This document shows, in pieces, positions 16,408 to 58,858 of a DNA stretch of 64,000 nucleotides (its first letter is position 1; each line of letters starts with the position of its first letter). The stretch comes from Ktedonobacteraceae bacterium. GTDB lineage: Bacteria > Chloroflexota > Ktedonobacteria > Ktedonobacterales > Ktedonobacteraceae. Position numbers and translations under genes: made by a program. The notes beneath the pieces were generated by a model, which saw only the letters and a list, made by a program, of their open reading frames with translations, was not told the DNA's origin and searched no databases. Location: the NCBI GenBank assembly GCA_035653615.1, contig DASRBN010000033.1:186001-250000 (forward strand), read 5' to 3'.

Positions 16408-18345
16408 ATGTATGTCGATGCCATAACACTTGCGGCAGTCGTCGACGAATGGCATATGTTGCTTTTAGGCGCGCGGATAGATACGATTATCCAGCCAACA
16501 GAGCACTCTATTGCCCTGCAATGCTATGTGTCCGCACGGGAGGGACAGGCCGGTCGGAATCACTGGCTCTATCTATCAGCTCACCCGCAACTGGCCCGTG
16601 CGCACCTTACCACCCGCAAGCCCGCAAAAATTTCTAGCGAGCCGCCGGCTTTTGTCATGCTGCTGCGCAAATATCTGGAGGGCAGTCGCATCGAATCGAT
16701 TTCCCAACCGCGTTGGGAGCGTGTGCTGGAAATTGTCGCCGGCCATCGTAGCGCTGAAAGCGAAGAGCGCACCCGCAGCCGTCTCATCATCGAAATCATG
16801 GGCCGCACCAGCAATATCATTCTTTGCGATGAGCAAGGAATGATTCTTGGCAGTCTCAAACATGTAGGGCCTGATATTAATCGCTATCGCATCATCGCCG
16901 CCAACGTGCAGTATGTTCCACCCCCAGCGCAGACGCGTACATTCGCGGACCAGGTGCTGCCTCGCCTCGATCCAACCACGATCACCGCCGCTCAACTGGC
17001 TATACTCGTGGTAGAAGAGCCTGCCGAACCACCGGCCGCACCTGCGAAAAAGGGACGTTCGCGCCCGCAGGAGCAACAAAAGCTCTGGCAACTTCTCATC
17101 AGGAACCTGCTCGGCTTCAGTCCCCTCGTCGCGCGGGAAGCCGTCTATCGTGCGACCGGAGATTCGGAATCTTCGCTCGACATCTCAGAAAACACCTGGG
17201 AAGAGTTAGCCCGCAACACGCGTGAACTGGCCTCGCTCTATGATACCCACGCCTGGAAACCACAACTCGTGGAGCGCCTGGACGGGGATTCCAGCACCTC
17301 ACCGGCATTTCCTATAGCCTTTGCCCCTTATGCGCTGGAGCAGTATGCCGCAATGCCAGGAGCGCGCATACGTACTTCGCCATCCATCAACATCATCATC
17401 GACGAATATTACGCGGGCGCGGAATGGCGCGATGCTATGGAGAGCGTGCGTTCTCCAATACGAAAAGTCCTGCAAACGCAGCGCGAGCGCACTATTCGCA
17501 AGGCCCAATTGCTGCAACACGAGCTGGCCGCGGCTGAGGAAGCGAATACCTATCGCCTGCACGCTGAATTGCTGCTGGCCTATCAACATGAAATAACGCG
17601 GGGACAAACAAGCGTCACCGTGCAAAACTATTTTGATGATCAGGCCGCCGAGGTAACAATTCCGCTTGATCCGCGTTTTGATGCCGTGGGCAACGCTAAT
17701 CGCCTGTTCAACAAATATCATAAACTGCGCCGGGGACTTGCCCTCGTTCCAGGTCAGATCGAACAGAATGCCGCGGAACTGGCAACCATCGAGCAGTTGC
17801 TAGCCGACCTGGCGCTGGCAGAGACGCCGGCTGAAGTCGCGCTCGTTAAAGTCGAGGTGCAGGCAGCCGGCTACATGCGCGGCGCGAAAATGGGGAAATC
17901 GCCTGCCGCAGGTTCTCCGGGCAAACAGGCGAAGAAAGGGAAATCTGGCAAACATGCGAAAGGGAAACCCGTTCTACCCGGCGGCGGCATCCCCTTGCAC
18001 GTACAGAGCCGCGATGGATTCACCATCTTGATCGGCAAAAACAGCCGCCAGAACGAGGAAGTGACTTTCCACCAGGCCTCGGCAAACGATATCTGGCTTC
18101 ATGCCCGCGGCGTCCCTGGGTCGCATGTAATCATCAAAGCAACTGGACGCGATGTTCCTCGTAGCACCATAGAGCAGGCAGCAAGCCTCGCTGCCTGGTA
18201 CAGCCAGGCGCGTGGCAGCACCAGTGTTCCCGTTGATTATACCTTGCAGCGCCATGTGCGCCATATGAAAGGCGGCGGACCGGGAATGGTCATTTACGAG
18301 CGCGAGAGAACCTTATATGCCGAACCATCATCTCTCGCGCGATGA
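16408..18345 (+). CDS. rqcH: RqcH-type NFACT ribosome quality control protein
   Basis: A 645-residue NFACT-family protein (formerly annotated as fibronectin-binding). It has NFACT-N (residues 1-200, beginning MYVDAITLAAVVDEWHMLLL), a helical coiled-coil middle (about 330-470) and the NFACT-R domain near 545-640. NFACT-R includes 'DIWLHARGVPGSHVIIK' and a late 'HVRHMKGGGPGMVIYERERT'. In bacteria RqcH binds stalled 50S-peptidyl-tRNA complexes and adds C-terminal alanine tails. A Lys/Gly-rich linker at about 490-520 is species-specific. Its 3' end overlaps the convergent rpoN gene by 18 bases. Confidence 0.93.
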   Translation: MYVDAITLAAVVDEWHMLLLGARIDTIIQPTEHSIALQCYVSAREGQAGRNHWLYLSAHPQLARAHLTTRKPAKISSEPPAFVMLLRKYLEGSRIESISQPRWERVLEIVAGHRSAESEERTRSRLIIEIMGRTSNIILCDEQGMILGSLKHVGPDINRYRIIAANVQYVPPPAQTRTFADQVLPRLDPTTITAAQLAILVVEEPAEPPAAPAKKGRSRPQEQQKLWQLLIRNLLGFSPLVAREAVYRATGDSESSLDISENTWEELARNTRELASLYDTHAWKPQLVERLDGDSSTSPAFPIAFAPYALEQYAAMPGARIRTSPSINIIIDEYYAGAEWRDAMESVRSPIRKVLQTQRERTIRKAQLLQHELAAAEEANTYRLHAELLLAYQHEITRGQTSVTVQNYFDDQAAEVTIPLDPRFDAVGNANRLFNKYHKLRRGLALVPGQIEQNAAELATIEQLLADLALAETPAEVALVKVEVQAAGYMRGAKMGKSPAAGSPGKQAKKGKSGKHAKGKPVLPGGGIPLHVQSRDGFTILIGKNSRQNEEVTFHQASANDIWLHARGVPGSHVIIKATGRDVPRSTIEQAASLAAWYSQARGSTSVPVDYTLQRHVRHMKGGGPGMVIYERERTLYAEPSSLAR

Positions 18346-19791
18346 CGCGATGCCCATTTCCTCGCGGTACTTCGTCACTGTGCGGCGGGCCACCGGTATC
18401 CCGCGCGCGGTGAGCAGGCGCGCCAGTTCATCATCGCTCAGGCGGTGTTTCGGTTCCTCGGACGCAATCAACTCGCGCAGTACATCTTTCACGCCCAGCG
18501 AACCATCGAAGAAATCCGCGACAGGTATCAGGCGACCATTTGGCAGCAGCGCGTACTTATTCGCCGTTGTCCGGCTGACCGTCCCTTCATCCAGATTCAG
18601 GCGTGAAGCGACTTCCGCCCGCGTCAGCGGCCGTAGATAGCGCACACCCTTCTCGAGAAACTCGCGTTGATAATCGACAATCAGTTCCGCTACCCGCTTC
18701 AGGGTACGCCAGCGGCGATGCATGCAATCGATGAAAAACCTGGCTCGATCCGCGTTCTGGCGTAAGTAATGGCGCACTTCATCGCTTTCCGCGTTGCTGT
18801 TCAAGTATAACGGCTGCGTGCCGTAACCCGCGCCGATCTGAAAACCGTAGCGTTTCTCCTCGATCAATTCTACCTCAAAGCCCGCTTCGCCTTTGCGGAT
18901 GATGATATCGGGGCGAATATATGAAGCAAATGTAGGGACAGTGCCTCGTGCCTGTCCGGGCAGAGCAGCGTCAAATGCGTGCGCCGGAAACGGATGAAGC
19001 GAACTGCGAATGTACAATGCTGCCTGCCTGATCTCTTCTTCCGTCACTTTCAGAGCGCGAGCGACCTCGCTGAACTGGTTGCGGCCCAGCCGGTCTAAAT
19101 AATCCTCAATCAGCACTTTTGCCAATGGATGCGGCTCTTCCTGCTCGCTGATCGCCTGCAGTTGGATCAGCAGGCATTCGCGCAGGTTTCGCGCCCCAAT
19201 GCCGGTCGGCTCCAGCGTTTGCAACTGGCTAAGTACATATTCGACACGCTCCACGGGAACCTCTAACAACCCGGCAATCTCTTCCACGCTCACTTCCAGG
19301 TAGCCGCGTTCATTCAAATTACCCACCAGTTGCTCAGCGATCTCGATATCATCCGGTGTAACAAGCGCCTCCAGTTGTTGCAGCAGCACTTCCGCCAGTG
19401 TCTGGCTCATGGGGATGCGTGCCAGTGGGTCAAATTCGTCCTCGTCATCACTCTCAAATGCCGCATAATCGGAAATATCGTAGGGATGATACTCGCCCCA
19501 TTGCTGCTCGCCCTGAAGTTCATCGCCAGGCAGCGTCTCTGGCGCCGGAAAAGATGGTTCCGTGGGCTGCGTGTAATGCCCGCAAGAGGCACAGGCAGGT
19601 CCTTGTACCAGCGAGCCGCAAAAAAGGCATACCCGGTGTTCAATCACCTCAATCGCCGGATTCTCCATCTGTTCCTGCGCCACCGCCCGCTCTATTTCCT
19701 CCGCGGAAAGCTGCAACATTGTACTCGAGGTAATCAGCCGCGCGCTCACTCGCAGCACGTGATCTGGTTTTTGTGTCGGTTCCAGTCGCAT
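18328..19791 (-). CDS. rpoN: RNA polymerase sigma-54 factor
   Basis: 487 residues with all sigma-54 parts: region I near the N terminus (MLQLSAEEIERAVAQEQMEN), the core-binding domain (about 120-300), the C-terminal HTH and the RpoN box 'ARRTVTKYREEMGI'. The ATG at 19791 is chosen for its AGGAGGGGAG ribosome binding site. Two features are unusual. First, a C-x2-C-x8-C-x2-C zinc-ribbon-like knot (VCLFCGSLVQGPACASCGHY, about residues 53-72) sits just after region I. Second, an in-frame family A repeat encodes 'PGQARGTVPTF' inside the core domain. Sigma-54 needs AAA+ activators; none is in this window. Confidence 0.95.
   Translation of the reverse strand: MRLEPTQKPDHVLRVSARLITSSTMLQLSAEEIERAVAQEQMENPAIEVIEHRVCLFCGSLVQGPACASCGHYTQPTEPSFPAPETLPGDELQGEQQWGEYHPYDISDYAAFESDDEDEFDPLARIPMSQTLAEVLLQQLEALVTPDDIEIAEQLVGNLNERGYLEVSVEEIAGLLEVPVERVEYVLSQLQTLEPTGIGARNLRECLLIQLQAISEQEEPHPLAKVLIEDYLDRLGRNQFSEVARALKVTEEEIRQAALYIRSSLHPFPAHAFDAALPGQARGTVPTFASYIRPDIIIRKGEAGFEVELIEEKRYGFQIGAGYGTQPLYLNSNAESDEVRHYLRQNADRARFFIDCMHRRWRTLKRVAELIVDYQREFLEKGVRYLRPLTRAEVASRLNLDEGTVSRTTANKYALLPNGRLIPVADFFDGSLGVKDVLRELIASEEPKHRLSDDELARLLTARGIPVARRTVTKYREEMGIASSRER
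18932..18958. repeat. Repeat family A copy inside rpoN
   Basis: GTAGGGACAGTGCCTCGTGC followed by CTGTCC, nearly identical to copies at 35199, 55742 and 58812. It is read in frame through rpoN on the minus strand. Confidence 0.75.
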
Positions 19792-19811
19792 GTATCTCTC
19801 CCCTCCTATCA

Positions 19812-20492
19812 CTAAATCCACCCGCGACTAAGCAGGGCATTGTACGCCGCCTCCTGTTCTGCTGCCTGTTTATTGCGCCCATGCCCTCTGCCCGCCACCT
19901 GCGAGCCTAGCATGACTTCTACAGTAAACTCCCGGTCGTGCGATGGCCCCTCCTGGCTAACCAGGCGATACGAAGGGGTGATACCGTCACGCGCCTGTGC
20001 CAGCTCCTGAAATAAGGACTTGTTGTCCTTAAACAGGCGTTTCTGCACAATAGTATGTGCCAGGGGCTCCAATCGAGGCAGCAGGAAATCGCGCGCCACC
20101 TCTATACCCTGGTCAAGATAGATAGCGCCCAGAACCGATTCAAAAGCAGCTGCCAGGACACGTTGTCCTCCACCACTGTGCTGCTCTCCCCGGCCCATCA
20201 GCAAATAATTCCCCAGCTGCATCTCGCGTGCGAAGCTCGCCAGCGTATCTCTTTTTACCAGGATCGCTCGTATATCGCTCAATTCCCCCTCGCTCAACTC
20301 TGGAAAAGTCCGGTACAGGAAATCCGCGCTAACGAAAGCCAGGATAGAGTCGCCCAGGAACTCTAACCGTTCATTCGAACTCAGTCCCGCGCCCGCCGTT
20401 TCAAAAATATATGATCGATGCGTCAGGGCCAGTTGCAAAAGCTGCGGATTTCCAAAATGTACGCCCAGAGCCTCTTCCAGCGCTTCATTCAT
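19812..20492 (-). CDS. rnc: Ribonuclease III
   Basis: A 226-residue dsRNA endonuclease. The RNase III signature NERLEFLGDS (about residues 34-43) and the second acidic cluster around 'LGAIYLDQG' give the metal-binding Glu/Asp residues. A dsRNA-binding domain occupies about 155-225 (including GxGxNKQAAEQEAAYNAL-like residues). I place the start at the ATG at 20492, which overlaps the selD stop as ATGA. The longer frame upstream overlaps selD and encodes no family sequence. It processes rRNA precursors and structured mRNAs. Confidence 0.95.
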   Translation of the reverse strand: MNEALEEALGVHFGNPQLLQLALTHRSYIFETAGAGLSSNERLEFLGDSILAFVSADFLYRTFPELSEGELSDIRAILVKRDTLASFAREMQLGNYLLMGRGEQHSGGGQRVLAAAFESVLGAIYLDQGIEVARDFLLPRLEPLAHTIVQKRLFKDNKSLFQELAQARDGITPSYRLVSQEGPSHDREFTVEVMLGSQVAGRGHGRNKQAAEQEAAYNALLSRGWI

Positions 20493-31309: not shown

Positions 31310-33172
31310 ATGGTTGTAGATGATTATCCATCCGATCAATCGATACATCAACTTTTCGAAGCTCAAGCCGCGCGCACACCAGCTCGCGTCGCTCTTATCT
31401 CCGGGCAGCAGCGAATAACCTATCAGGAATTGAACCGGCAGGCCAATCAACTGGCCGCCTACTTGCGTCGCTCAGGTGTAGGACGAGAGGCACTGGTAGG
31501 CATTTGCATGGAACGTTCGATAGAGATGGTCATCGGACTGCTTGGTATCCTCAAGGCAGGAGCTGTCTATGTGCCACTCGATCCAACCTATCCCCGCGAA
31601 CGCCTCGCTTTCATGCTCGCTGATGCTCACCCGGCAATTTTGCTAACGCAGCAGCATCTCGCCGCACGGCTTCCCCCGCATGATCGCACCATCTGCATAG
31701 ATAGAGACTGGCAGGCAATTGCTCAAGAAAATGAAGAAAATGTTTCCAGCGGCGCAGGCAGGGACAATATTGCCTATATGCTCTATACTTCCGGCTCTAC
31801 CGGTACGCCCAAGGGTGTGCTTGGAACGCATCGCGCAGCAATCAATCGCTTTTGCTGGATGTGGAATACCTATCCATTTGAGCCGGGCGAAGTCTGCTGC
31901 CACAAAACATCGTTAAGTTTTGTGGACTCGGTCTGGGAGATTTTTGGACCACTCCTGCAAGGTATCCCGGCGGTCATCATTCCCAACTCGATAGTGAAAG
32001 ACCCTCAGCAACTACTTCAGACGCTGGCCGCCCATGCTGTTACCCGTATCGTACTTGTTCCATCGCTTCTCAGGGTGCTATTGGAATCGGAACATCTACA
32101 AGATTTGCTACCCCGCCTGAAGTACTGGATCAGCAGCGGCGAAGCGCTACCCATGGACCTGGCACAGCGCTTTCTAAAGCAGATGCCCAATAGCATACTC
32201 CTCAACCTGTATGGTTCCTCGGAAGTGGCCGCCGATGTGATGTATTACGATGTGCGCGACTATACCTCTCAAGCCAGCATTCCGATTGGTCGTCCGATTG
32301 CTAATACCCAGATCTACCTGCTGGATGAGCAAATGCTGCCGGTTCCTATTGGTGCTCCGGGAGAACTTTATGCCGGTGGGGATGGCCTGGCACGCGGCTA
32401 TTTCAATCGCCCAGAGCTAACCGCCTCTCGATTCGTTCCCGACCCGTTTAGCGGCAAACCGGGAGCGCGGCTTTACAGAACAGGCGATATAGCCCGCTAC
32501 CTGGACGACGGCAATATCGAATATCTGGGCCGCCTCGATCATCAAGTGAAGGTGCGCGGCATACGTATTGAACTGGGCGAGATCGAATCGGTGTTGGGAC
32601 AGCATCCCGCCGTGCGCCAGGCGGTCGTGATAGCCCGTGAAGACGCGCCGGGCGATAAGCGCCTGGTGGCCTATATTGTCTTGCATGAAAAGCAGACCGC
32701 ATCCTCAGATGAACTATACAATCACACCCTGGAACGCCTGCCGGATTATATGGTACCCGCCGCCTTCGTTTTCCTCGCGCGCTTACCACTGACACCGAAC
32801 GGAAAGCTGGATCGACAGGCATTGCCGCTACCCAGGCCAGTTCGTCCAGACCTTTCATCGGACTTCCTGGCCGCCCGCACGCCAGTTGAGGAGACCATCG
32901 CTGCCACCTGGTCGCGGGCGCTGGGAATCGAGCAAATTGGCATCCACGACAACTTCTTTGAGTTAGGCGGCCATTCTCTGCTTGCTATGCAAATGCTTTC
33001 GCAGCTGCAAGCCGACTTCTCGGTAGAGTTGCCGGTGCATCGTTTCCTCGAAGCTCCTACCATAGCTCAACTCGTAGAATTGCTCCAACAAGGTCAAAAC
33101 AATGGCTCAACGTCTCATAAACCTTCACTGCGGTCTATCTCACGCGAGGCATACCGTATGCCTTCGTCTTGA
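31310..33172 (+). CDS. NRPS loading module, adenylation + peptidyl carrier, beta-amino-acid-type pocket
   Basis: 620 residues: an adenylation domain (about 10-500; A3 LYTSGSTGTPKGV at 158-170; A7 'YRTGDIARYL'; A10 'PLTPNGKLDR') and a carrier domain with Ser556 in DNFFELGGHSLLAMQ. There is no condensation domain, so it is a starter module. Aligned by eye to GrsA, the ten pocket residues read V-D-W-V-I-S-L-A-D-K. The normal Asp235 that holds an alpha-amino group is Val, and the set matches the code I recall for beta-alanine-activating domains. A beta-alanine-like starter (or a diamino acid bound through its beta-amine) is therefore predicted. GGAGG lies before the ATG. Confidence 0.92.
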   Translation: MVVDDYPSDQSIHQLFEAQAARTPARVALISGQQRITYQELNRQANQLAAYLRRSGVGREALVGICMERSIEMVIGLLGILKAGAVYVPLDPTYPRERLAFMLADAHPAILLTQQHLAARLPPHDRTICIDRDWQAIAQENEENVSSGAGRDNIAYMLYTSGSTGTPKGVLGTHRAAINRFCWMWNTYPFEPGEVCCHKTSLSFVDSVWEIFGPLLQGIPAVIIPNSIVKDPQQLLQTLAAHAVTRIVLVPSLLRVLLESEHLQDLLPRLKYWISSGEALPMDLAQRFLKQMPNSILLNLYGSSEVAADVMYYDVRDYTSQASIPIGRPIANTQIYLLDEQMLPVPIGAPGELYAGGDGLARGYFNRPELTASRFVPDPFSGKPGARLYRTGDIARYLDDGNIEYLGRLDHQVKVRGIRIELGEIESVLGQHPAVRQAVVIAREDAPGDKRLVAYIVLHEKQTASSDELYNHTLERLPDYMVPAAFVFLARLPLTPNGKLDRQALPLPRPVRPDLSSDFLAARTPVEETIAATWSRALGIEQIGIHDNFFELGGHSLLAMQMLSQLQADFSVELPVHRFLEAPTIAQLVELLQQGQNNGSTSHKPSLRSISREAYRMPSS

Positions 33173-33403: not shown

Positions 33404-36400
33404 ATGGCCCTGACTTCTGAGTCACCCCTGTCAAAGCAGCAAGATATCTACGCCTTTCCTGCATCTTTCGCGCAGCAAGGTCTCTGGTATATCGATCAAA
33501 TACATCCACACAATACCATCTATAACCTGTTCTCCACGCTGCATATTCGCACTGCTGTCAACACAGATGCCCTTGCTAGCAGCATTCAGGCAATCATTCA
33601 GCGGCATGAAGCACTGCGCACAGTTTTTGTGGCGCACAACGGCCAGCCACTGCAAATGATCCTTCCACAGCTGGAGGTACCGTTTACGGTTGTGGACCTG
33701 GAATATCTACCTGAAGCGGCACGACAGGCCGAAATGCTACGGCTCGCGAATGCGGAGGTGCAGCAGCCCTTTGATCTGGCTCATGGCCCCCTGCTGCGTA
33801 CCACCCTCTTTCGCCTGGGGGCCAGGGAATTTCTCCTGCTGCTGACCATTCACCATATCATCTACGATGGCTGGTCGGTGCATGTCTTCTTTCGCGAACT
33901 GGCCGCGTATTATCAGGCTTTTGACAAAGGTTCGCCGCTCGCATTGCCCGCGTTACCCGTTCAATATGTCGATTTCGCCGTCTGGCAACGCGAATGGTTG
34001 AGCGGTGAAAGGCTCGATGAACAGCTTGCCTACTGGAAGCAACAACTGGCCGGCGCACCTGCCCTGTTCGAACTCCCAACCGATCGACCTCGACCGGCTA
34101 TCCCAACCAGCAGGGGTTCCCTGCGCCTCTTTCAGTTTTCAAGAGCATTTACCGAAACGCTGAGAGCTCTCAGCCGGCAGGAAAAGGTCAGCCTGTTCAC
34201 CACCCTCGTTGCTTCCTTTCAGACATTGCTGTATCGCTACACCGGGCAGGAGGATTTGCTGCTCGGTACCGATACTGCTGATCGCAGCCAGGCAGGAACG
34301 GAAGATTTGATCGGCTTTTTCGTCAATACCCTGGTGTTGCGTTGTGATCTATCCGGCAATCCTACCTTCCATGAACTCCTGGGCAGGGTACGCCAGGTGA
34401 TCCTTGAGGCTTACGCGCATCAAGACGTGCCCATCGAAGTGCTCGCTCGCGAACTCCGGCCTGACCGCTCCCCGGGTCAAAATCCTTTCTTCCAGGTCAT
34501 GTTGTCGCTTGACCTCTCATCCCCTGACCTGCCGCCGCATTGGGAACTGCTGCCATTGGAGTTGAAAACAGGTTCCGCCAAGTTCGATCTCTCATTCGAG
34601 ATGCAGGACCGCTCGGATGGCCTGCTTATATTCCTGGAGTACAACACCGACCTCTTCGATGAAACAACCATTGTGCGCATGATGGGCCATTGGCAACGCT
34701 TGTTGGAAGGAATCGTCGCCGACCCCCAGCAACATATTGCCGACCTGCCGCTTTTGACCGCCGGTGAGTGGCAGCAGCAGATCATTGACTGGAACGCTAC
34801 CTCAGCAGACTTTCCCCAACACTGCTGCTTCCCCCAGCTATTTGAAGAGCAGGTCGCCCGCACACCCGATGCTATCGCAGTCGTCTTCGAGCAGGAGCGA
34901 TTCACCTACCGGCAACTGAACCAGCACGCGAATTACCTGGCACACCATTTGCAAGACCGTGGTGTCGGTCCCGAAACCATCATCCCTCTCCTCGCGGAAC
35001 GCGGCAGCGCCTTCATCATCGCAATGCTGGGCATCATGAAAGCTGGGGGAACCTATCTCCCGCTCGACCCGCGTCACCCTGCCGCGCGCCTGCGCCAGGT
35101 GCTTGAACACAGTGGCTCGCATTTTCTGCTTGCCACGAAAAAGTTCGCCCCCATCCTTTCCCAGATCACCGCCCCCAATCCCGATCCCGATTCCACCCGT
35201 GGGGACAGCGCCTCGTGCCTGTCCTTCCCACGGCCCGATCAATCTGGCCCCTACGAGATTCTTTACCTTGAGGATATTTTCGCCATAGCGGATACGAACA
35301 TGGCTCAGAGTAATTTGCCTGTGCGCGCAACGCCTCGCAACATGGCGTATGTCATTTATACATCTGGCTCAACCGGAACGCCCAAGGGGGTGATGATCGA
35401 GCATCGTGGAATGTTGAACCATCTCTATGCCAAGGTCTCCGATCTCAAACTCTCCGCGGCTGATAGGATAGCGCAAACCGCTTCGCAATGCTTTGATATC
35501 TCAGTCTGGCAATTTCTGGCCGCTTTGCTCGTAGGCGGGCGCGTTCACATCTTTCCCGACGAGGTGGCTCATCACCCGCTGCACCTGCTTGAGCAGGTTG
35601 ATCAGCACGAAATCTCCATCCTCGAAACCGTGCCATCCCTGCTGCGCGTCATGCTCGAGTCCATCGAAAATGGAAGCAATGCCTATCCTCGCCTGCAACA
35701 CCTGCGCTGGCTTATTCCAACAGGAGAAGCCTTGCCTCCAGAGTTCTGTAAAAGATGGTTGAATATCTACCCCGGAATTCCTTTGTTAAATGCCTATGGG
35801 CCTACCGAGTGTTCGGATGATGTCACCCACTTCCCTATCCATCATCCTCTTGCCAACCAGCAGCTACACACCCCCATCGGCCGGCCGATTCAGAACATGC
35901 AGCTCTACATCCTTGACCGGCAGTTACATCCTGTACCCATTGGCGTCAATGGCGAATTGTACGTAGGCGGCATAGGCGTAGGTCGTGGCTACCTCAATGA
36001 CCCGCAGCGCACAGCCGAATCATTTGTACCCAACCCCTTCGTAAGAACCAACCAGATCGCGACCCCACAAGACCAATCCCCCGGCTCTGTCTTATATGCC
36101 GACCAATCCCCCGGCGAAGCCGTAGGGGCCGATTTATCGTACACACCGCCGATTTATCGGCCCTCGCCCAATCTCACACCCGAATCCGGCGCAAAGCTCT
36201 ATAAAACTGGTGACCTGGTTCGTTACCTCTCTGATGGCACCATCGAATTCCTTGGCCGTATTGATCACCAGGTCAAAATACGTGGCTATCGCATCGAGTT
36301 GGGGGAAATCGAATCTGCGTTGCGCCAGCACAACAGCGTGCAGGATGTAGTTGTCATCGTTCGTGAGGATACAACCGGCAACAAATCCCTTGTCGCCTAT

Positions 36401-36967
36401 GTCGTAGCATCATCGGATGTCACTGCGAACGAACTGCGAACCTCTCTAAAGCAAAAATTGCCCGATTACATGATTCCATCTGCCATCGTGCTGCTAGAAT
36501 CGCTACCGCTCACGCCAAATGGCAAAGTAGATCGCCGCGCCTTACCCGTCCCTCAGTACGAGCGATTCGAGCCAGGTGAACGGTTTGTAGCTGCGACTCA
36601 ACCCATCCAACAGCAGCTTGTCCAGATCTGGGAGGAACTCCTGGCGATTCGACCTATCGGTATCCAGGATAACTTCTTCGAAATCGGAGGCCATTCCCTC
36701 CTGCTCGTTCGCCTGCTTGACCGCATCGAACAGGTCTTCGGCAAAAAGATTCCCATAGCTACCCTGCTGGCCGCCCCAACGATTGAGCAACTGGCTCATA
36801 TCCTGGCCGCCGAACCCGGTAGGGACAGCGGCCTGTCCCTATCCCGGTCGGGGCACGAGGACAGGCACCAGGACCCCAGAGAGGACAGGGACAGGCCGCT
36901 GTCCCTACAGGACTTATTGTCTTCAATGAAAGCGGTCTGGAAAAGGTCGCGCCCTGGAAAGGCGTAA
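33404..36967 (+). CDS. NRPS extension module, condensation-adenylation-carrier
   Basis: 1187 residues from the ATG at 33404 (AAGGA upstream; a longer frame from 33293 lacks a site). The condensation domain (about 15-450) has an intact HHIIYDG at 150-156. The adenylation domain (about 470-1065) has an A3 YTSGSTGTPKGV. The carrier domain has Ser1098 in DNFFEIGGHSL. The pocket reads D-I-W-E-I-T-A-D-D-K by my alignment. Asp235 is normal, and acids at 278, 330 and 331 suggest a cationic side chain such as 2,3-diaminopropionate. No thioesterase or reductase follows. Three in-frame repeat insertions (about residues 599-617, 890-921 and 1138-1169) interrupt loops and the tail. Confidence 0.92.
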   Translation: MALTSESPLSKQQDIYAFPASFAQQGLWYIDQIHPHNTIYNLFSTLHIRTAVNTDALASSIQAIIQRHEALRTVFVAHNGQPLQMILPQLEVPFTVVDLEYLPEAARQAEMLRLANAEVQQPFDLAHGPLLRTTLFRLGAREFLLLLTIHHIIYDGWSVHVFFRELAAYYQAFDKGSPLALPALPVQYVDFAVWQREWLSGERLDEQLAYWKQQLAGAPALFELPTDRPRPAIPTSRGSLRLFQFSRAFTETLRALSRQEKVSLFTTLVASFQTLLYRYTGQEDLLLGTDTADRSQAGTEDLIGFFVNTLVLRCDLSGNPTFHELLGRVRQVILEAYAHQDVPIEVLARELRPDRSPGQNPFFQVMLSLDLSSPDLPPHWELLPLELKTGSAKFDLSFEMQDRSDGLLIFLEYNTDLFDETTIVRMMGHWQRLLEGIVADPQQHIADLPLLTAGEWQQQIIDWNATSADFPQHCCFPQLFEEQVARTPDAIAVVFEQERFTYRQLNQHANYLAHHLQDRGVGPETIIPLLAERGSAFIIAMLGIMKAGGTYLPLDPRHPAARLRQVLEHSGSHFLLATKKFAPILSQITAPNPDPDSTRGDSASCLSFPRPDQSGPYEILYLEDIFAIADTNMAQSNLPVRATPRNMAYVIYTSGSTGTPKGVMIEHRGMLNHLYAKVSDLKLSAADRIAQTASQCFDISVWQFLAALLVGGRVHIFPDEVAHHPLHLLEQVDQHEISILETVPSLLRVMLESIENGSNAYPRLQHLRWLIPTGEALPPEFCKRWLNIYPGIPLLNAYGPTECSDDVTHFPIHHPLANQQLHTPIGRPIQNMQLYILDRQLHPVPIGVNGELYVGGIGVGRGYLNDPQRTAESFVPNPFVRTNQIATPQDQSPGSVLYADQSPGEAVGADLSYTPPIYRPSPNLTPESGAKLYKTGDLVRYLSDGTIEFLGRIDHQVKIRGYRIELGEIESALRQHNSVQDVVVIVREDTTGNKSLVAYVVASSDVTANELRTSLKQKLPDYMIPSAIVLLESLPLTPNGKVDRRALPVPQYERFEPGERFVAATQPIQQQLVQIWEELLAIRPIGIQDNFFEIGGHSLLLVRLLDRIEQVFGKKIPIATLLAAPTIEQLAHILAAEPGRDSGLSLSRSGHEDRHQDPREDRDRPLSLQDLLSSMKAVWKRSRPGKA
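35199..35255. repeat. Repeat family A (plus C fragment) inside the NRPS gene
   Basis: GTGGGGACAGCGCCTCGTGC then CTGTCC, followed by CGGCCCGATCAATCTGGCCC at 35231-35250. Translated in frame as roughly TRGDSASCLSFPRPDQSGP between adenylation motifs A2 and A3, where standard domains have a short loop. Confidence 0.75.
36116..36164. repeat. Repeat family C inside the NRPS gene
   Basis: GTAGGGGCCGATTTATCG ... CGCCGATTTATCGGCCC is read in frame between adenylation motifs A6 and A7. It is preceded by a short direct duplication of GACCAATCCCCCGGC (36071-36085 and 36101-36115). Confidence 0.75.
36818..36909. repeat. Double repeat family A inverted pair at the NRPS C terminus
   Basis: GGTAGGGACAGCGGCCTGTC at the left and GGACAGGCCGCTGTCCCTAC-type sequence at the right form an inverted pair, with a further GACAGGCACCAGGACC unit between. 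It encodes a hydrophilic tail rich in Arg, Asp and Ser after the carrier domain. Confidence 0.75.
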
Positions 36968-37053: not shown

Positions 37054-37254
37054 ATGAGCAATACTAATGAACAGGACGATAACATTACCTACAAAGTAGT
37101 CGTCAACCATGAAGAGCAGTATTCGATCTGGCCTGCCTCCCGCGAAAATGCCCCTGGCTGGCGTGATGCGGGCAAAACAGGTTCAAAAGCAGAATGCCTG
37201 GCGTATATCAAAGAAGTCTGGACCGACATGAGGCCGCTTAGCCTCAGAACGTAG
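37054..37254 (+). CDS. MbtH-like protein
   Basis: 66 residues with the complete MbtH signature: '[12 protein letters not shown]' with the invariant Asn, Glu, Gln and Trp-Pro, '[20 protein letters not shown]', then '[11 protein letters not shown]'. MbtH proteins bind and activate NRPS adenylation domains. Its place directly after the NRPS genes, with a strong AAGGAG site, indicates that it serves one or both of them and that the NRPS system is expressed. Confidence 0.97.
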
Positions 37255-43656: not shown

Positions 43657-44439
43657 TTAATGCAGCCATAGCATGACATGGCGGTAGGGAGCTGCCGGCA
43701 TATCCACACGGTACAGCATGGCCTCTACCGTTGATGTATCCGTATGCTGAGCTTGCGGTAGCGCGAGCGTTACCTGCCAGTTCTGTCCCGACGCGAGCGT
43801 AATCAGAGGCCATTGCTTGACGATTTTGCCATCTTCATTTACGACAAGTCGGTATTGCATGGCCGTCTGCTCCATATTTCTCATGCCGATGCGCACAGCA
43901 CTCTTCGCGGAAACTCCGCTCCCCGGTAGTATCCACAGTTGAGTAAAGCCGGGACGTGGTTGTTGTTGTGCCCCAATAGTGGAGACAACAACTCCTCCGC
44001 AGAGGATAAGCGCGGCCAGCCCAAGCAATAGCCCTTGTCCAAAAGTGAAGGCAAGACCGCGTGGGGCCGATTCATCGGCCCGTAACCCCCCCTGAAACCG
44101 TTGTATAAGCGCAATCGCGCACGCGACAAGCGTGATGCTCCCTGAGAGGACCGCCCATGAATCGGCCTGTAAGCCGAATGGCGTCAGGTTAAGCAGCAAT
44201 CCACACACTATGGCGCATACCAGGCTAAGGCCCAGGCTCAAAACGAGGCGCTCGATAGCATTCAATGTCTTTTGCGAAAATAAGGCGCTGGTGAGCGCAT
44301 AGCCTGGCAGGATCAGCACCAGCGGCAATGTCAGGACGCGTAGCAGGTTGCCGGTTGGCGGTACTAACAATGCCAGCGCTATATCAGCAAGCGCGATTCC
44401 TATGACGATAAAGATATCGAGGTATCTCTGTTTCATCAT
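43657..44439 (-). CDS. DUF1616-type membrane protein
   Basis: 260 residues from the ATG at 44439, whose A overlaps the last base of the upstream gene's TGA; a TTG three bases earlier is possible. Four or five membrane helices in the first half (for example 'VLTLPLVLILPGYALTSALF') are followed by a C-terminal extracellular beta domain (about 175-260), the layout of DUF1616 proteins found near archaeal and bacterial glycan genes. A family C repeat at 44061-44086 encodes 'RADESAPRG' in frame between two helices. Confidence 0.75.
   Translation of the reverse strand: MMKQRYLDIFIVIGIALADIALALLVPPTGNLLRVLTLPLVLILPGYALTSALFSQKTLNAIERLVLSLGLSLVCAIVCGLLLNLTPFGLQADSWAVLSGSITLVACAIALIQRFQGGLRADESAPRGLAFTFGQGLLLGLAALILCGGVVVSTIGAQQQPRPGFTQLWILPGSGVSAKSAVRIGMRNMEQTAMQYRLVVNEDGKIVKQWPLITLASGQNWQVTLALPQAQHTDTSTVEAMLYRVDMPAAPYRHVMLWLH
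44061..44086. repeat. Repeat family C fragment inside the DUF1616 gene
   Basis: GTGGGGCCGATTCATCGGCC followed by CGTAAC; in frame, in the loop between membrane helices. Confidence 0.7.
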
Positions 44440-46682
44440 CAAGTACTCCCTGGAAAAGTTTTCCGTCTATCGTACTCGTTTGTCCCCTGTTTGGGGAAAG
44501 ACGGTTTGGGTACCGGAACGGGCGTCGATGGAAGCGGCTGGCCTGAAAGAGTGCCATTGCTGATCTGTTCTACATCGTAGATGATGATGTCGCCGCTATC
44601 AAAGATGCGACTGACACCCGGCACAACATCGAATTTTTCAAGCGCTGCCCGGTCAATGGGTTGTGTATAGTGCTGAGCGTCAGGCTCACCGTTGTTGAAG
44701 TAGGTTCCTGTCTCAGGCAAAGCCGTGCTGAGGCGCAGGTCAACAACGAGGTACTGAATATGATCCTGGCGCAGTATTGTCACGACGCCTGTACCGAATT
44801 GAGCAGAGAGGAATACCCACGATACAGCGATAGGGGCGCTGCCGGATGTTTCCGCGAACTGCCGTCCATAGGTTGCCATAAGCTCTGTGTTGTCGCGGTC
44901 GCTGGCAACAATATGTCCAGGCCCCAGATACGTATTCGTCCATACAGCCGCGGTAATACCTTCCGGTTCAATGGAACGATCATCGGCGGATACCTGGTAC
45001 GGGCCTGGCAGAAAACTACCCGATGAACCGGCCCCCATAGCAAGCTGACCAACGAATAGCACAGCAATCGCGTATACTGCCAGCGTCGCGCGTCCCCAAC
45101 TGGGGGTGCCCAGAATCAGAAAACGCCGCGCTGCCACCGCCAGAACGAACGCTATTGCTACGAACAGAAACTCTGTTGATCGACTTGCTACCTCCGCTCC
45201 TGTTTGCGTCAGATGCAGTATCAAGATGCCCGGAAAGGCAAATACCGCGCAGGCCAGGGCGAGGGCAAAGGCATTGTCGCGATAACGCCGCCAGGTCGCG
45301 AACAGCCCAAAAGGAAGCCCCAACAGGATCAGCAGTAACGAGGCATACACCATCAAGCGTTCCCACGGCGGCGCTCCAGTCGAAGCAGTGCTTTGAAAGG
45401 GCTGTCGCGCCTGGCTATGATGAGCCACTATCTGTACCAGCTGGCTTAGCGCCCCGGTAACATGTGGAGTCAGGTACGCCAGGGCAGCGCCTCCTGTATA
45501 GACCAGCCAGGCCGTTGTCAGTACCAGGCTCACCAGTACTATTCCACCCGGGCTTGCCTGTACCTGTAATCCAGCGCGGGCCGATAAATCAGCGCTGGGC
45601 GCGATCAATCGGCCCCTACGCGCCGCCGTGGGATGTCCCGCTCTCCACAGCAGCAGAAATACCACCGTCCAGACAACGAGAAAACCCAGCAGCATAAACG
45701 AGGTGAGATGGTGCGTCACAACTACCGCACCTATTCCCAACCAGGCCGCTATCGTGAAACCCGGGCGTGGTTGCATCGAAGTATCTCCGCGGCGAACCAC
45801 GAGGAACAACACAAATACGGCAAGTGATAATGCCAGGGACTCGTATGCGAAGATCGAGTCGAAGAACACGAAGTTTGGATTCGTCATGTACAGCAAGGTG
45901 GCAATTCCCGCTATCCACATGGAACTGCTAATACGTTCATAGATCAGGTAAAGAGACGGGACGAATACCAGCCATGCCGTACCAATGAGCACACTTCCGG
46001 CAACGAAAATAGAAAGCCCTGTAAGACTGCTCAGCGCGTTGGTAACAATCTCAAGCCCGGGATAAAAGGCGCTGATCGGCAGCAGTGGATTCGCGGAAAA
46101 AAGGTGCCCGCTCGCGGCAATATCCTGCGCCGTTCGCACGTGTAAGAACTCATCATAACCGGCGAAATACAGCGGGTACTGTAAAACCTGGACAAAATAC
46201 AGGCTGATTGCCAATACAACAAGAAGGCCAACCCGCTCTCGTCTTGCCGGTTTTTGAGAGAGTAAGCGCGCCGCGACCGGCAGAAAAATCGCTATCAGCC
46301 CGAACCAGAACAGCGGCTCGCCCCATGCTGCGGAAATGCGCCCTCCCTCGTATGCCAGGGCCACCAGGAATACTCCAATGGCGCACGTTACTGATAATAC
46401 CGGCAACCATCCCCACTCCCTGGCTATCGCTTTGCTCCGCAAGGCTTTTAGATTGACATCTGTAACTGGGAGATAGCGGATGCGTATCATATCAGCCATC
46501 TCTCGCTCTGCCACTGGAGACGTGCTATCCTCTGCCTGGGCTTTTGCCCGCGTATGCTCTGGCGCAATGTGTTCACCGCAGCCAATGCAGAAGTGCGCGC
46601 CCGGCAATAGCGGTTCGCTACAGTGAGGGCAAAATACTTTATCTGATGGGTTTTCACTCCCTACCGGTTTCGCTATTTCCAT
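44439..46682 (-). CDS. Zinc-ribbon polytopic membrane protein, possible polymerase or glycosyltransferase
   Basis: 747 residues. An N-terminal zinc ribbon, C-x2-C-x10-C-x2-C (FCPHCSEPLLPGAHFCIGCG, about 18-37), is followed by a large block of some 13-14 membrane helices (about 90-560) and a C-terminal soluble domain (about 570-720). The membrane part, with an acidic loop after the first helices (YDEFLHVRTAQDIA), resembles dolichyl/undecaprenyl-phosphate sugar transferases (GT-C) or O-antigen polymerases. That loop contains Asp/Glu residues as in GT-C active sites. A family C repeat encodes 'RRGRLIAPSADLSARAG' in a loop. Fusion of a zinc ribbon to such a protein is unusual. Confidence 0.75.
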   Translation of the reverse strand: MEIAKPVGSENPSDKVFCPHCSEPLLPGAHFCIGCGEHIAPEHTRAKAQAEDSTSPVAEREMADMIRIRYLPVTDVNLKALRSKAIAREWGWLPVLSVTCAIGVFLVALAYEGGRISAAWGEPLFWFGLIAIFLPVAARLLSQKPARRERVGLLVVLAISLYFVQVLQYPLYFAGYDEFLHVRTAQDIAASGHLFSANPLLPISAFYPGLEIVTNALSSLTGLSIFVAGSVLIGTAWLVFVPSLYLIYERISSSMWIAGIATLLYMTNPNFVFFDSIFAYESLALSLAVFVLFLVVRRGDTSMQPRPGFTIAAWLGIGAVVVTHHLTSFMLLGFLVVWTVVFLLLWRAGHPTAARRGRLIAPSADLSARAGLQVQASPGGIVLVSLVLTTAWLVYTGGAALAYLTPHVTGALSQLVQIVAHHSQARQPFQSTASTGAPPWERLMVYASLLLILLGLPFGLFATWRRYRDNAFALALACAVFAFPGILILHLTQTGAEVASRSTEFLFVAIAFVLAVAARRFLILGTPSWGRATLAVYAIAVLFVGQLAMGAGSSGSFLPGPYQVSADDRSIEPEGITAAVWTNTYLGPGHIVASDRDNTELMATYGRQFAETSGSAPIAVSWVFLSAQFGTGVVTILRQDHIQYLVVDLRLSTALPETGTYFNNGEPDAQHYTQPIDRAALEKFDVVPGVSRIFDSGDIIIYDVEQISNGTLSGQPLPSTPVPVPKPSFPKQGTNEYDRRKTFPGST
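45578..45620. repeat. Repeat family C inside the polytopic membrane protein gene
   Basis: GGGCCGATAAATCAGCGCTG then GGCGCGATCAATCGGCCCCTACG, an inverted arrangement of the C motif, read in frame in a loop between membrane helices. Confidence 0.7.
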
Positions 46683-46694
46683 GCGTTCTTTGCC

Positions 46695-47948
46695 TTAATT
46701 GCCTGTTGCCGGGGCGGCTGCTTTTTGCAGCAAACCCTTGTACACATGCTCGATACGTGGTACAACCGTACTGGCCTGAAATCTGTCAACGTTCCGTAGC
46801 GCGGCTTCTCCCATGCCCTTACGTACACCGGGATCGGCAAGCAGGCGCCTGATGGCCTGTTGTAGGGCAGGTGCGTCGCCAGGCTCTACCAGCAGGCCAG
46901 TTTCGTCGTGTGTCACCAGTTCTGCCAGGCCGCCAATGCGGGAGGCAATCACCGGACTCCCTACCGACATCGCCTCCATCACTACCGTGGGGCAGGACTC
47001 CGGCCCGACCGACGGCAATATCGCAATGAAGCAGCGACGCAACGCCTCTATGACGGCCTGGCGAGGCCAGTCCTTAAAAACAAACACATTGCCAGGACAA
47101 TCTTTGCTTAGAACCGGCCAGTCCGATGTTTCATAGCCGATGAGAACGAGTGGAGGCGCATCACTGAGCCCGGCGTAAGCCTTCAGCAGGACATCTACGC
47201 CTTTCTGCCGGTTGAAAGCCCCTACAAAAAGCAGGTAGGGTTCGTTGGGGAGCTGCGCGGCGTAGGACGTAGTGTCACTCCGCGCTACACCAATATCATC
47301 GGGTATAAAGTTGGAAATGACCTGGAAAGGTAATCGCTGCGCTGCCAGGCCATTGCCCAGTGCCACCGCCTGGCTCACGGGAAGGAACATATCGACAAGA
47401 CATCTTCTCACCTGTCCCATGACGCGATCAGCGAGTACCGTAGGCACACCTTTCCCCGGCCCGTAATACTGGATGCCGCAGCGCAGGCACTTTGAAAGCC
47501 CAGGCCCATTACAGATTGAATCGTTCAGGAGCAGCGTCGTTTTCACACACACCAGGTCATAGTTATGCAGTGTCACTACCAGCTTCGCGCCGCTCCATAG
47601 CTTCAGCGGCAGATAGGAATAGACGAGCCAGTTATGAGCGTGTACGATCTGCGGGCGTCCATCGCGGATGATCTGCCTCAATGCCAGCGTCACTTCTGGA
47701 TCGGGAAACGGCGGCGCGTATTGTCTCCCGCTATCTCTGAAGAGCCACGGTAAGCGACGTGTTGAGGAGCGAACCCGGTACACCTTTACTCCCGCGTCCA
47801 TCTCGAATGCGGCCAGCCCGGTATGCCATAGCGTCACTACGGCTACCTCGTGCCCGCGCGCCGCAAGCTCAGTACTCAGTGATCGCACGTGTATCGCTCC
47901 TCCTCCAATTATTGGCGGGTAGAACTGCGTGAGCATCATGATACGCAT
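46695..47948 (-). CDS. Glycosyltransferase family 4
   Basis: 417 residues, GT-B fold. The N-terminal 'LTQFYPPIIGGGAIHVRSLS' holds the Gly-Gly loop, the donor domain has 'YLLFVGAFNRQKGVDVLLKA', and the Glu motif is 'PSVGPESCPTVVMEAMSVGS', followed by 'PVIASRIGGLAELV'. An intermediate Cys-rich segment (VCVKTTLLLNDSICNGPGLS then KCLRCG) is common in this subgroup. The gene's 5' end overlaps the 3' end of the neighbouring GT4 gene by 13 bases, so the two are coupled. Confidence 0.9.
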   Translation of the reverse strand: MRIMMLTQFYPPIIGGGAIHVRSLSTELAARGHEVAVVTLWHTGLAAFEMDAGVKVYRVRSSTRRLPWLFRDSGRQYAPPFPDPEVTLALRQIIRDGRPQIVHAHNWLVYSYLPLKLWSGAKLVVTLHNYDLVCVKTTLLLNDSICNGPGLSKCLRCGIQYYGPGKGVPTVLADRVMGQVRRCLVDMFLPVSQAVALGNGLAAQRLPFQVISNFIPDDIGVARSDTTSYAAQLPNEPYLLFVGAFNRQKGVDVLLKAYAGLSDAPPLVLIGYETSDWPVLSKDCPGNVFVFKDWPRQAVIEALRRCFIAILPSVGPESCPTVVMEAMSVGSPVIASRIGGLAELVTHDETGLLVEPGDAPALQQAIRRLLADPGVRKGMGEAALRNVDRFQASTVVPRIEHVYKGLLQKAAAPATGN

Positions 47949-49081
47949 ACCGGCCTCCGCGCTATTGTCTCGTAAAGGGCCAGGAGGCTACTGGCACAGG
48001 CATCCCATGTCGGTAACTCGACATCCCCCGGCTTGAGGGGATTGCGCAGCTGATCAACGATTGCCCTCGCCACTTCCTGGGGCGTGCTATGTAAAGGAAT
48101 ACCATATGTCAGGTCACGATTGATCAGCTCGCGCAATGCTGATGTGCTGGCAACCAGTACTGGACGCCCCAGCGCCAGTGCCTCCATTACCGCGATACCC
48201 TGGGACTCGTACTCACTGAATAACGTAATCAGGCTTGCTCCTGCAAGCAGCGCGGCCATGCCCTCCCGGTCCTCAGCAGAAACGGGCCGTATTTCTACAT
48301 ACTTATCAACCTTGAGGCTCCTGGCAATTTTTCGCAGCGTTGACTCGTAAGGTCCCGTCCCTACTATACGCACCCGCGCATCTGGAATCTCCGCCAGCAC
48401 TCCCGGCAGCGCCTCGATCAACCGCTGGTGCCCCTTATACCGTTCCAGCCGGCCAATTGAAACAATGAGAGAATCTTTTCGCCCACCCTCTGTAGGGACA
48501 ATGTCTCGTACCTGTCCTGTCTCCTCGCACAAATACGCCCCATTTGGAATGATAACGAACTGCTCCTTTGGCAGCCGCAGCCGCTCCTGAAAGAAATTGG
48601 CCTCAAATTGTGAGACGGCGATCAGCTTATGCGCGCGTGCCAGCAGTGGACGCAGCGTCTTGTAGTGTATGCCCCGCAATGCTTTGCGCAGGCCCGAAAC
48701 ATCTCCCCCACTATGAAAGGAGAGTACGAACGGCATATTGGCCCGCCATGCGCCCAGCATCGCCAGTGGAGGAACCAGGTTATGATAGCCCTGGCAGTGG
48801 ACGAGATCCCAGCGTTCCTGACTGATGAAGCGATAGATGCCGGGCGCGAAGAAGTAATCCTTCTTCTCCGGCCATGCCCGTACCCTATAGGTGCGTATGC
48901 CCTCGGACTCCTCAAAGGCAGGCAGCTGTCCGCTCACATCCGTCGTCAAAACCGTAACCTCGACGCCGGCCCGTACCAGGCGCCTGCCAACCTCATAGAC
49001 ATGTGTCTCAACCCCTCCTGTATAGGGAATGTAACGGCAAGCGACCATCAGCACGCGCAGTGGGCTAAATGCGGTGGGCAT
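47936..49081 (-). CDS. Glycosyltransferase family 4
   Basis: 381 residues, GT-B fold. 'CRYIPYTGGVETHVYEVGRR' opens the acceptor domain, 'IVSIGRLERYKGHQRLIEAL' begins the donor domain and the Glu motif is 'LFSEYESQGIAVMEALALGR'. It is likely to act on the same glycan as the other transferases. A family A repeat (48491-48518) encodes 'GQVRDIVPTEGG' just ahead of the donor domain, lengthening the interdomain linker. Confidence 0.9.
   Translation of the reverse strand: MPTAFSPLRVLMVACRYIPYTGGVETHVYEVGRRLVRAGVEVTVLTTDVSGQLPAFEESEGIRTYRVRAWPEKKDYFFAPGIYRFISQERWDLVHCQGYHNLVPPLAMLGAWRANMPFVLSFHSGGDVSGLRKALRGIHYKTLRPLLARAHKLIAVSQFEANFFQERLRLPKEQFVIIPNGAYLCEETGQVRDIVPTEGGRKDSLIVSIGRLERYKGHQRLIEALPGVLAEIPDARVRIVGTGPYESTLRKIARSLKVDKYVEIRPVSAEDREGMAALLAGASLITLFSEYESQGIAVMEALALGRPVLVASTSALRELINRDLTYGIPLHSTPQEVARAIVDQLRNPLKPGDVELPTWDACASSLLALYETIARRPVCVS
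48491..48518. repeat. Repeat family A copy inside a GT4 gene
   Basis: TGTAGGGACAATGTCTCGTA then CCTGTCCT, a diverged copy of the family A unit, read in frame. Confidence 0.65.
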
Positions 49082-53567: not shown

Positions 53568-54620
53568 ATGACTTTTTCAATAGATAATCATATCCTCTAT
53601 CTTTGTCAGCAAGATGTAGAGCAGGCTTGCCAGAAAATTGACAGTGTGGCAGTCATACGCGAAGTGTTCCGCCTGCACGATGCCGGGCAGACCATCTTGC
53701 CCGATGAAGCCTACCTTGCCTGGACCAATGATCAGGGGGAAAGTGTCAGAAGCCTCAACATGCCTGGCTACGTTGGTGGCTCTCTGGGGATTGCCGGAAC
53801 CAAGATCATTAATGGCAATATCGCTAACCCCCGGCGTGGCCTGCCGCGCGCAAGCGGACTGACCCTCCTCTATGATCCAATCTCTGTTCGTGTCACCTGC
53901 ATCATGGAAGGCGCCTATATCTCAAGCCTGCGCACCGCCAGCGTCACCGCCCTTGCCGCCGACTTATTGAAAGCAGCGGAAATTGAGAGCCTTGCCATCA
54001 TCGGCGCGGGCGTACTCGCTCGCGCGCATATTGAGCTGCTTGCCGGGCGATTGCCACATCTGCGCCATATCCGCATATTTGATCTGGCACAAGAACGCAT
54101 AACATCCCTCCAGCAGCAGCTTGCTCCCCTGCTGGAGGCAAAACGGATAGAGATGCAGCCGGCGGCAACCGCCGAAGAGGCAATTCGAGCAGCACAATTG
54201 ATAGTACCCGTCACCACTACCACCGATGGCTATATTCACTATCACTGGTTACGACCCGGTTCGCTACTTGTCAATATCTCACTGGATGATCCCCTGCCAG
54301 AAGTCGTACTCAAAGCAGATCGCGTGATCGTTGACGATTGGAATCTCGTCAAGAACGACTCGCGACGCCTGGTAGGAAGGATGTATCGCGCAGGAAAGGT
54401 AATCGGACCGCACGCTCCAATTGAGCTAACCGGCAAGGACTGCCGCCGCATCGATGCACAGTTGGGAGAAATTGTCTCAGGAAAGGTTATTGGGCGAAGC
54501 AGCCCGGACGATATCATCCTGGTCAATCCTTTTGGCCTCGCGATTGAAGACGTAGCGCTCGCCGTCCGCGTCTACCAGGCCGCTCAAGAACTCGGCATAG
54601 GAATACTCTTGCCCCTGTAG
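53568..54620 (+). CDS. sbnB: SbnB-like dehydrogenase (2,3-diaminopropionate pathway, step 2)
   Basis: 350 residues from the ATG at 53568 (AAGGAGA seven bases upstream). The longer frame from 53502 runs into a repeat and is rejected. It belongs to the ornithine cyclodeaminase/mu-crystallin family, with the Rossmann 'LAIIGAGVLARAHIELLAG' (about 143-161) and 'MEGAYISSLRTASVTALAAD' (substrate Arg). SbnB uses NAD to split ACEGA into L-2,3-diaminopropionate and 2-oxoglutarate. Together with sbnA it should make the diamino acid for the NRPS. The stop codon TAG is part of a repeat that starts there. Confidence 0.87.
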   Translation: MTFSIDNHILYLCQQDVEQACQKIDSVAVIREVFRLHDAGQTILPDEAYLAWTNDQGESVRSLNMPGYVGGSLGIAGTKIINGNIANPRRGLPRASGLTLLYDPISVRVTCIMEGAYISSLRTASVTALAADLLKAAEIESLAIIGAGVLARAHIELLAGRLPHLRHIRIFDLAQERITSLQQQLAPLLEAKRIEMQPAATAEEAIRAAQLIVPVTTTTDGYIHYHWLRPGSLLVNISLDDPLPEVVLKADRVIVDDWNLVKNDSRRLVGRMYRAGKVIGPHAPIELTGKDCRRIDAQLGEIVSGKVIGRSSPDDIILVNPFGLAIEDVALAVRVYQAAQELGIGILLPL

Positions 54621-55813: not shown

Positions 55814-56407
55814 ATGACCGACCGCGGCTTTACCCTCTGGTTTACGGGGCTTTCCGGCGCCGGTAAGAGTACTCTGGCCAGAGCCGTCGAACGGCGCTTG
55901 AAATTGCATGGCCGCAATGTTGAGATACTAGATGGCGACATTGTACGCACTCACCTGAGCAAAGGTCTCGGCTTTAGTCGCGAAGACCGCGATACCAACA
56001 TCAAGCGCATTGCTTTCGTCTGTAAACTGCTCACACGCAATCAAGTGATCAGCATTGCAGCTGCCATCTCTCCCTATCGCGAGGCACGCGAATGGGCGCG
56101 CAGAGAAATCCGCGATTTTGTCGAAGTCTACGTCAGGTGCCCGCTAGAGATCTGCCGTCTACGCGACGTAAAAGGCCTCTACAGGCTCGTTGACGAAGGA
56201 AAGATTAAGGGCTTTACCGGTATTGACGACCCTTACGAGGAGCCACTTCACCCCGAACTGTTGATAGAAACCGATAAAGAGGCCATCGAAGACAGTGTCA
56301 ATCGCATCTTCGTCAAACTCGCGGAGCTTGGCTATCTGCCGCCCGAAGACCTGTACGAGGACACCGGAATCCTGACAGATGAGCTTATGGCCTGGGGATA
56401 CCTGTAG
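55814..56407 (+). CDS. cysC: Adenylylsulfate (APS) kinase
   Basis: 197 residues. P-loop 'FTGLSGAGKSTLA' (about 9-21), 'DGDIVRTHLSKGLGFSREDR' (APS-binding Asp/Arg/Phe), 'VYVRCPLEICRLRDVKGLY' and 'FTGIDDPYEEP' are all diagnostic. It phosphorylates APS to PAPS, the donor for the sulfotransferase at 49103. No ATP sulfurylase or PAPS reductase lies next to it, so it probably serves sulfation, with APS made elsewhere. It starts six bases after the acyltransferase stop (GGAGG site) and the stop TAG lies at the edge of a family A repeat. Confidence 0.95.
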   Translation: MTDRGFTLWFTGLSGAGKSTLARAVERRLKLHGRNVEILDGDIVRTHLSKGLGFSREDRDTNIKRIAFVCKLLTRNQVISIAAAISPYREAREWARREIRDFVEVYVRCPLEICRLRDVKGLYRLVDEGKIKGFTGIDDPYEEPLHPELLIETDKEAIEDSVNRIFVKLAELGYLPPEDLYEDTGILTDELMAWGYL

Positions 56408-58182: not shown

Positions 58183-58198
58183 AAGGGGGAAATACACC

Positions 58199-58636: not shown

Positions 58637-58858
58637 TCCTTGCGTGCAAAGGAATCGCGGGCTTGCGTCCTCGCGCCCACGTAAGGTCGCACCCTGGTGG
58701 TTGCACGTGTCCGTGCAGGGATCAAACAGGAACTCCGCAAATTCCTCTGTTCCGGTGTATCCTCTCAGAGGATGGCGGGGCAGGGCCATGTGCCCGCCCT
58801 GCCAACTGGTTGTAGGGACAGCGCCGTGTGCCTGTCCTTCTAGAAAAGAGAGTTCAGC
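58637..58858. repeat. Repeats B and A between the two Cys-rich genes
   Basis: A diverged family B unit (GTAAGGTCGCACCCTGGTGG at 58681-58700) and a family A unit (TGTAGGGACAGCGCCGTGTG then CCTGTCC at 58811-58837) fill the 222-base gap. Confidence 0.65.

Follow-up and report, generated by a model that had tools for sequence, protein, structure and literature searches.

How can a single gene take up repetitive DNA at three places and remain open from start to stop? This question is raised by a nonribosomal peptide synthetase (NRPS) gene of a Ktedonobacteraceae bacterium (assembly GCA_035653615.1), which lies in a 64,000-nucleotide (nt) stretch of contig DASRBN010000033.1 (positions 186,001 to 250,000). 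This whole stretch is hereafter called the window, and its own numbering is used throughout. The initial annotation of the window, made from the sequence alone, had described three in-frame repeat insertions in this gene, placed them between the adenylation (A) motifs A2 and A3, between A6 and A7, and after the carrier domain, and assigned them to repeat families A, C and A, respectively. We found the frame from 33404 to 36967 intact across all three sites and the placement relative to the core motifs to be right. Very probably, the inserts are copies of two families of hairpins that resemble repetitive extragenic palindromic (REP) sequences and carry a GTAG tag, that is, non-autonomous mobile DNA that inserted without direction and was then sorted by selection.

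The three insert sites and the adenylation domain

To establish whether the inserts are additional sequence, we aligned the A domain of the NRPS with 50 other A domains and took the spacer lengths from anchor to anchor. The A2–A3 spacer of the host NRPS is 93 amino acids (aa), compared with 49–75 aa (median 65) in the 50 others, and its A6–A7 spacer is 69 aa, compared with 19–32 aa (median 24). A motif-based scan of 78 distinct A domains agreed with the alignment with one exception, the unrelated A domain of L116 (record titled Lautropia sp.), whose A2–A3 spacer is 92 aa long and differs in sequence. Thus, the outcome that the initial annotation had named as contrary to its claim, the same loop lengths and sequence in unrelated A domains, was not observed: all 50 are shorter at both sites, and L116 does not share the sequence. 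Both inserts are also absent from two A domains of the same genome that are 60 and 61% identical to that of the host (L102). In a search of named genomes, the NRPS matched 16 NRPS loci, all of them distant (26–51% identity). Ordinary length variation was therefore firmly rejected at A6–A7, since none of the 50 A domains is that long; at A2–A3 it was rejected, despite the spacer of L116, since the extra residues are themselves repeat sequence. Two further A domains of this genome have a slightly extended A6–A7 loop (30 and 32 aa in the motif scan), so this loop was probably variable before the element arrived.

The family assignments stood for the second site (C) and the third (a dimer of A units), whereas the first proved to be composite, because its A unit, read in frame as RGDSASCLS, adjoins an inverted family-C half; L052 holds a unit with the same variant core as this half. 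The third site is a repeat insertion as claimed, but it occupies the C-terminal tail behind the peptidyl carrier protein (PCP) domain rather than the interior of a domain. A 15-base duplication had been reported to flank the second insertion. The duplication is real and belongs to an imperfect tandem repeat of 30 nt (10 codons), but the C unit has both copies on its 5' side, which rules them out as its target-site duplication. A Pfam scan of the protein found no domain inside the inserts. The coordinates are listed in Table 1.

We then examined the AlphaFold2 model of the A domain, which was built on the alignment with the 50 others and has a mean predicted local distance difference test score (pLDDT) of 88.2. 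A pLDDT below 50 over at least three residues occurs only at residues 131–142 (35201–35236, insert 1) and 419–455 (36065–36175, insert 2); insert 3, in the tail, lies outside the model, and the disorder prediction covers inserts 1 and 2. The model matches solved A domains (4d4i; template-modelling score, TMt, 0.94; root-mean-square deviation 2.1), and in the comparison with solved sequences the A6–A7 insert is the piece skipped between matched segments. Structural modelling of the insert positions, proposed with the initial annotation as a check, thus predicts that inserts 1 and 2 add disordered segments to an A domain whose fold is intact. Together with the open frame, this prediction suggests that the protein tolerates its inserts, as had been proposed.

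Table 1. Window coordinates of the host NRPS gene and its repeat-derived inserts
Feature	Position	Strand	Remark
Host gene, NRPS	33404..36967	+	ATG 33404 to stop 36967; 1187 aa; condensation–A–PCP (C-A-PCP)
Insert 1, first half: family-A unit with GTGG variant of the GTAG tag, between A2 and A3	35199..35224	+	
Insert 1, second half: inverted family-C half unit beside the A unit	35236..35254	-	exact match, 0 expected
Insert 2, whole extra stretch, A6–A7, about 45 aa	36044..36178	+	alignment with 50 A domains
15-nt word, twice (36071-36085 and 36101-36115)	36071..36115	+	5' of the C unit
Insert 2, family-C unit, read as VGADLSYTPPIYRP	36122..36162	+	hairpin z -3.75
Insert 3: head-to-head dimer of family-A units, C-terminal tail after PCP	36819..36908	+	90 nt

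Two dispersed repeat families

The genome assembly comprises 6.59 Mb and is 95% complete. Counted as exact matches, the family-A core occurs 101 times and the GTAG-tagged family-C core 142 times genome-wide, whereas the reversed patterns do not occur at all; the repeats are therefore not due to chance. For a detailed sample, 60 stretches, each of 20 kb, were combined with the window (1.264 Mb in total, 19% of the genome). Relaxed patterns matched it 75 times for A, 77 times for C and 109 times for the C end, compared with 0, 1 and 0 in the reversed sequence. The exact GTAG tag is present in 58 of the 75 family-A units, and the stem of this family covaries at the position tested (C-G in 39 units, G-C in 24, paired in 68 of 75). 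Units measure 26–41 nt and dimers about 66–90 nt; the 60 clusters that contain A units consist of 47 singles, 8 head-to-head and 2 tail-to-tail pairs, 2 three-unit arrays and 1 head-to-tail pair. The dimer of insert 3 folds into a hairpin of -34.8 kcal/mol (z score -6.63), which none of 200 shuffled sequences equalled; two family-C units fold at z -3.75 and -3.69, and insert 1 folds at z -2.38. Among 40 relatives, the tagged A pattern, with 85 copies in this genome, was not found, and the C pattern was found in four (2, 1, 9 and 19 copies).

To relate the elements to genes, we predicted 1,028 genes in the sample with a home-made finder, which assigned 83.6% of it to coding sequence. Of 142 element clusters, 93 are intergenic, 14 touch a gene edge and 35 lie wholly in genes, so that the in-gene share is 25% rather than the 83.6% expected for random placement, a strong depletion; because an open frame was a precondition for counting a cluster as in-gene, this set does not by itself show selection for frame. 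The intergenic clusters fall between tandem (53 in 99 kb), convergent (17 in 26 kb) and divergent genes (20 in 65 kb) or at the ends of stretches (3), and per base they are rarer in divergent than in tandem or convergent gaps. Within genes, 23 clusters are interior (22 genes), 8 are near the C-terminus and 4 near the N-terminus, the last of which may reflect wrongly called starts. When 35 elements were dropped at random on the 1,028 genes, some gene received at least three in 1.5% of the simulations; hence, three elements in one gene are a mildly unusual outlier, and the NRPS gene was chosen for that very feature. Taken together, an unpaired tag at one end of the palindrome, a short stem-loop, head-to-head dimers and numerous, mostly extragenic copies, which are the marks of the GTAG REP superfamily, show that families A and C have the anatomy of such elements.

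Pfam scans covered 21 of the 22 genes with interior elements. Matches with an E value of 0.001 or lower were obtained for 18 of the 21, in one case only below the curated cut-off. The hosts include sigma-54 (window 18328-19821), a glycosyltransferase (window 47936-49081), TsaD, RecJ, RecD2, FemAB, an AMP-binding enzyme, a histidine kinase and protein kinases. The insert lies inside the domain match in L047, L056, L081, sigma-54 and NRPS insert 1, and most others lie between or beyond matches. Elsewhere in the window, in-gene units occur at 18932-18957, 44065-44080, 45579-45619, 48492-48517 and 55743-55768, including those of sigma-54 and the glycosyltransferase, and in two window genes the GTAG tag of an element supplies the TAG stop (54618-54620 and 56405-56407). 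A 144-nt family-C cluster at L061 8158-8301 adds 49 residues in frame to a gene for an FAD-binding protein.

We also looked for genes that an element had split, taking as candidates tandem genes with an element between them and at most 60 nt to each gene (n = 11). No pair with two parts of one domain was seen among the 10 of 11 that were Pfam-scanned. In L072, a family-C unit at 7585-7625 separates an AtuA gene (6219-7583) from an AtuA_ferredoxin gene (7659-8009), and this pair may be a fused gene that the element has split.

Probable undirected insertion with selection, and the alternatives

Loop comparisons were extended to two further hosts, using 23 homologues of TsaD and, for RpoN (sigma-54), 19 loci (24 found, 20 taken, 1 dropped). 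Both inserts sit in loops whose length varies among relatives. The depletion of elements in genes, together with host loops that were already variable, fits undirected insertion followed by purifying selection. Under this explanation, a hairpin unit would be mobilised in single-stranded form, and in trans, by a single-strand tyrosine transposase of the REP-associated (RAYT) type, which may have been lost, may be absent from the draft or may no longer be recognisable. Insertion would occur without regard to genes, copies that break a gene would be removed by purifying selection, and copies that leave the frame open in a length-tolerant surface loop or tail would be kept. The NRPS would thereby have gained three segments, probably disordered, and kept its fold. 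Mobility, the mobiliser and the enzymatic activity of the NRPS are what we infer here.

We searched for the mobiliser by way of Pfam family PF01797. The genome has only one such gene, which resembles TnpA of IS200/IS605 and has a TnpB-like frame beside it. It was rejected as a RAYT on account of this neighbour and, read by eye, the lack of the motif NP(L/V)(R/K)xG that passages of PMC2817692 give for RAYTs. On one side, a family-A unit is found close by, which may be chance at such element density. REP-transposase units can be absent in some species, according to passages of PMC3733652.

Several observations weigh against undirected insertion by a trans-acting transposase. A RAYT-like gene was not found in this genome, although at 95% completeness its absence is not proven, and in relatives, A or C units were not seen near any of 29 PF01797 loci. 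One single family-A unit folds weakly (z -1.28). The RpoN unit covers 9 aa with a net gain of only about 3 aa, which implies that its insertion was accompanied by loss of flanking residues or is older. Finally, no genome of the same genus is among the relatives, so that no empty site defines the borders or the age of an insertion.

The reading frames of the elements bear on whether the added peptides matter. All 65 family-C copies examined, of which 43 lie outside and 22 inside genes, have one antisense frame open; each of the other five frames is open in between 3 and 24 of the 43 extragenic copies. The same peptides recur in many proteins. Two stronger proposals can be built on these facts. 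The first holds that family C is compatible with protein coding and acts as a genome-wide, protein-extending module that adds a ADQSAVGAINRPL-like peptide to many proteins without a classical RAYT, which we regard as rather unlikely. An in-frame copy with coding signal on both sides was seen, in two further genera of this bacterial family, at 3 of the 30 loci scanned (from 31 family-C matches in relatives, one of them without a locus), and at least one of the three is weak. Family-C units in frame were noted near 1501 in both L202, where the signal is weak on one side, and L224, from two other genera. The second proposal, that the elements have been recruited and their peptides now serve the host proteins, for example in binding or regulation, would draw on the same recurrence and the same open frame, but we give it only a slight chance. 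Family-C copies share ancestry, so the open frame, which may simply reflect this ancestry and the palindrome, is no proof of selection for coding; moreover, host genes read the elements in at least four frames, with peptides that differ between them, and both A-domain inserts are predicted to be disordered and contain no Pfam domain.

Targeting to loop-coding DNA, in which the mobiliser would favour a certain sequence or context, had been offered in the initial annotation as the alternative to tolerance and appears very improbable. The inserts of TsaD and RpoN and NRPS inserts 1 and 2 all lie in loops, as it would predict; however, most clusters are intergenic and those in genes are strongly depleted, and the host loops were already variable in length, a pattern that selection alone explains. 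Least probable of all is a decaying NRPS pseudogene that accumulates repeats, for which the four repeat units in one gene and the absence, in the Pfam scan, of a thioesterase domain after C-A-PCP might speak, because its 1187 codons contain no stop, its coding score is the highest among the predicted genes of the window (254.7, from the home-made finder), its condensation, adenylation and carrier domains all match Pfam well above the cut-off, and an A-PCP gene and an MbtH gene adjoin it. With the A-PCP gene upstream (31310-33172) and, downstream, the MbtH gene (37054-37254) and two FemAB/GNAT-like genes, the NRPS belongs to a small biosynthetic cluster. Elsewhere in the window, a segment is duplicated 660 bases apart (58195-58564 and 58855-59224); identity is 79% over 247 nt and 95% over 111 nt.

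Known systems and meaning

Families A and C and their presence in the NRPS can be compared with several known systems. T. roseum belongs to the same phylum as the host genome. The elements of this species, the only one of the phylum named in passages of Di Nocera et al. (2013; PMC3733652), are clustered, unlike the dispersed A and C units. The same passages describe GTAG REPs as short hairpins with a GTAG tag that occur as singles and head-to-head dimers and are mostly intergenic, and they include in-frame intragenic copies, more than one insert per gene and tags that supply TAG stop codons. Families A and C resemble what is described there in tag, hairpin, dimers, intergenic bias, in-frame copies, repeated insertion in one gene and TAG stops; the likeness is one of anatomy, and they may or may not belong to one of the 24 published families. 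They differ in that a RAYT was not found in the present genome.

REP units paired in inverse orientation (REPINs) and their RAYTs are reportedly the subject of work by Bertels and Rainey in 2011. REPINs consist of inverted pairs of tagged REP units, and they are accompanied by a RAYT gene that has these REPs on its flanks (see also passages of Nunvar et al., 2010; PMC2817692). The 90-nt inverted dimer behind the PCP domain is of this form, but a RAYT gene with the same flanking REPs was not found here. Rickettsia palindromic elements (Ogata et al., 2000, 2002, as presented in parts of PMC10969869, PMC2229807 and PMC3733652) are about 105–150 bp long. Like the present units, they lie in frame in many unrelated conserved genes and give recurring peptides; the present units differ in their smaller size, their GTAG tag and their occurrence in an unrelated organism. 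Interrupted A domains, in turn, contain a whole catalytic domain inserted at a2-a3 or a8-a9, according to passages of a review (PMC11355689), and share with the NRPS the acceptance of extra sequence between A2 and A3. The inserts of the NRPS are instead short, predicted to be disordered and derived from repeats, and A6–A7 is not among the sites named in those passages.

We found no account of these repeats in the Ktedonobacter literature, judged from search listings. In-frame intragenic REPs and the Rickettsia elements are already known; the example is new and the principle is not. New here are families A and C, their frequency inside genes and the lack of a recognisable RAYT transposase. Collectively, the in-gene copies form a dense natural set of short in-frame insertions in conserved proteins (NRPS, sigma-54, TsaD, RecJ, RecD2 and FemAB), whereas most cases in the literature searched are proteobacterial or rickettsial. 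The set offers two repeat families and maps which loops of these enzymes tolerate added sequence; for NRPS engineering, it indicates A6–A7 as a permissive site besides A2–A3.

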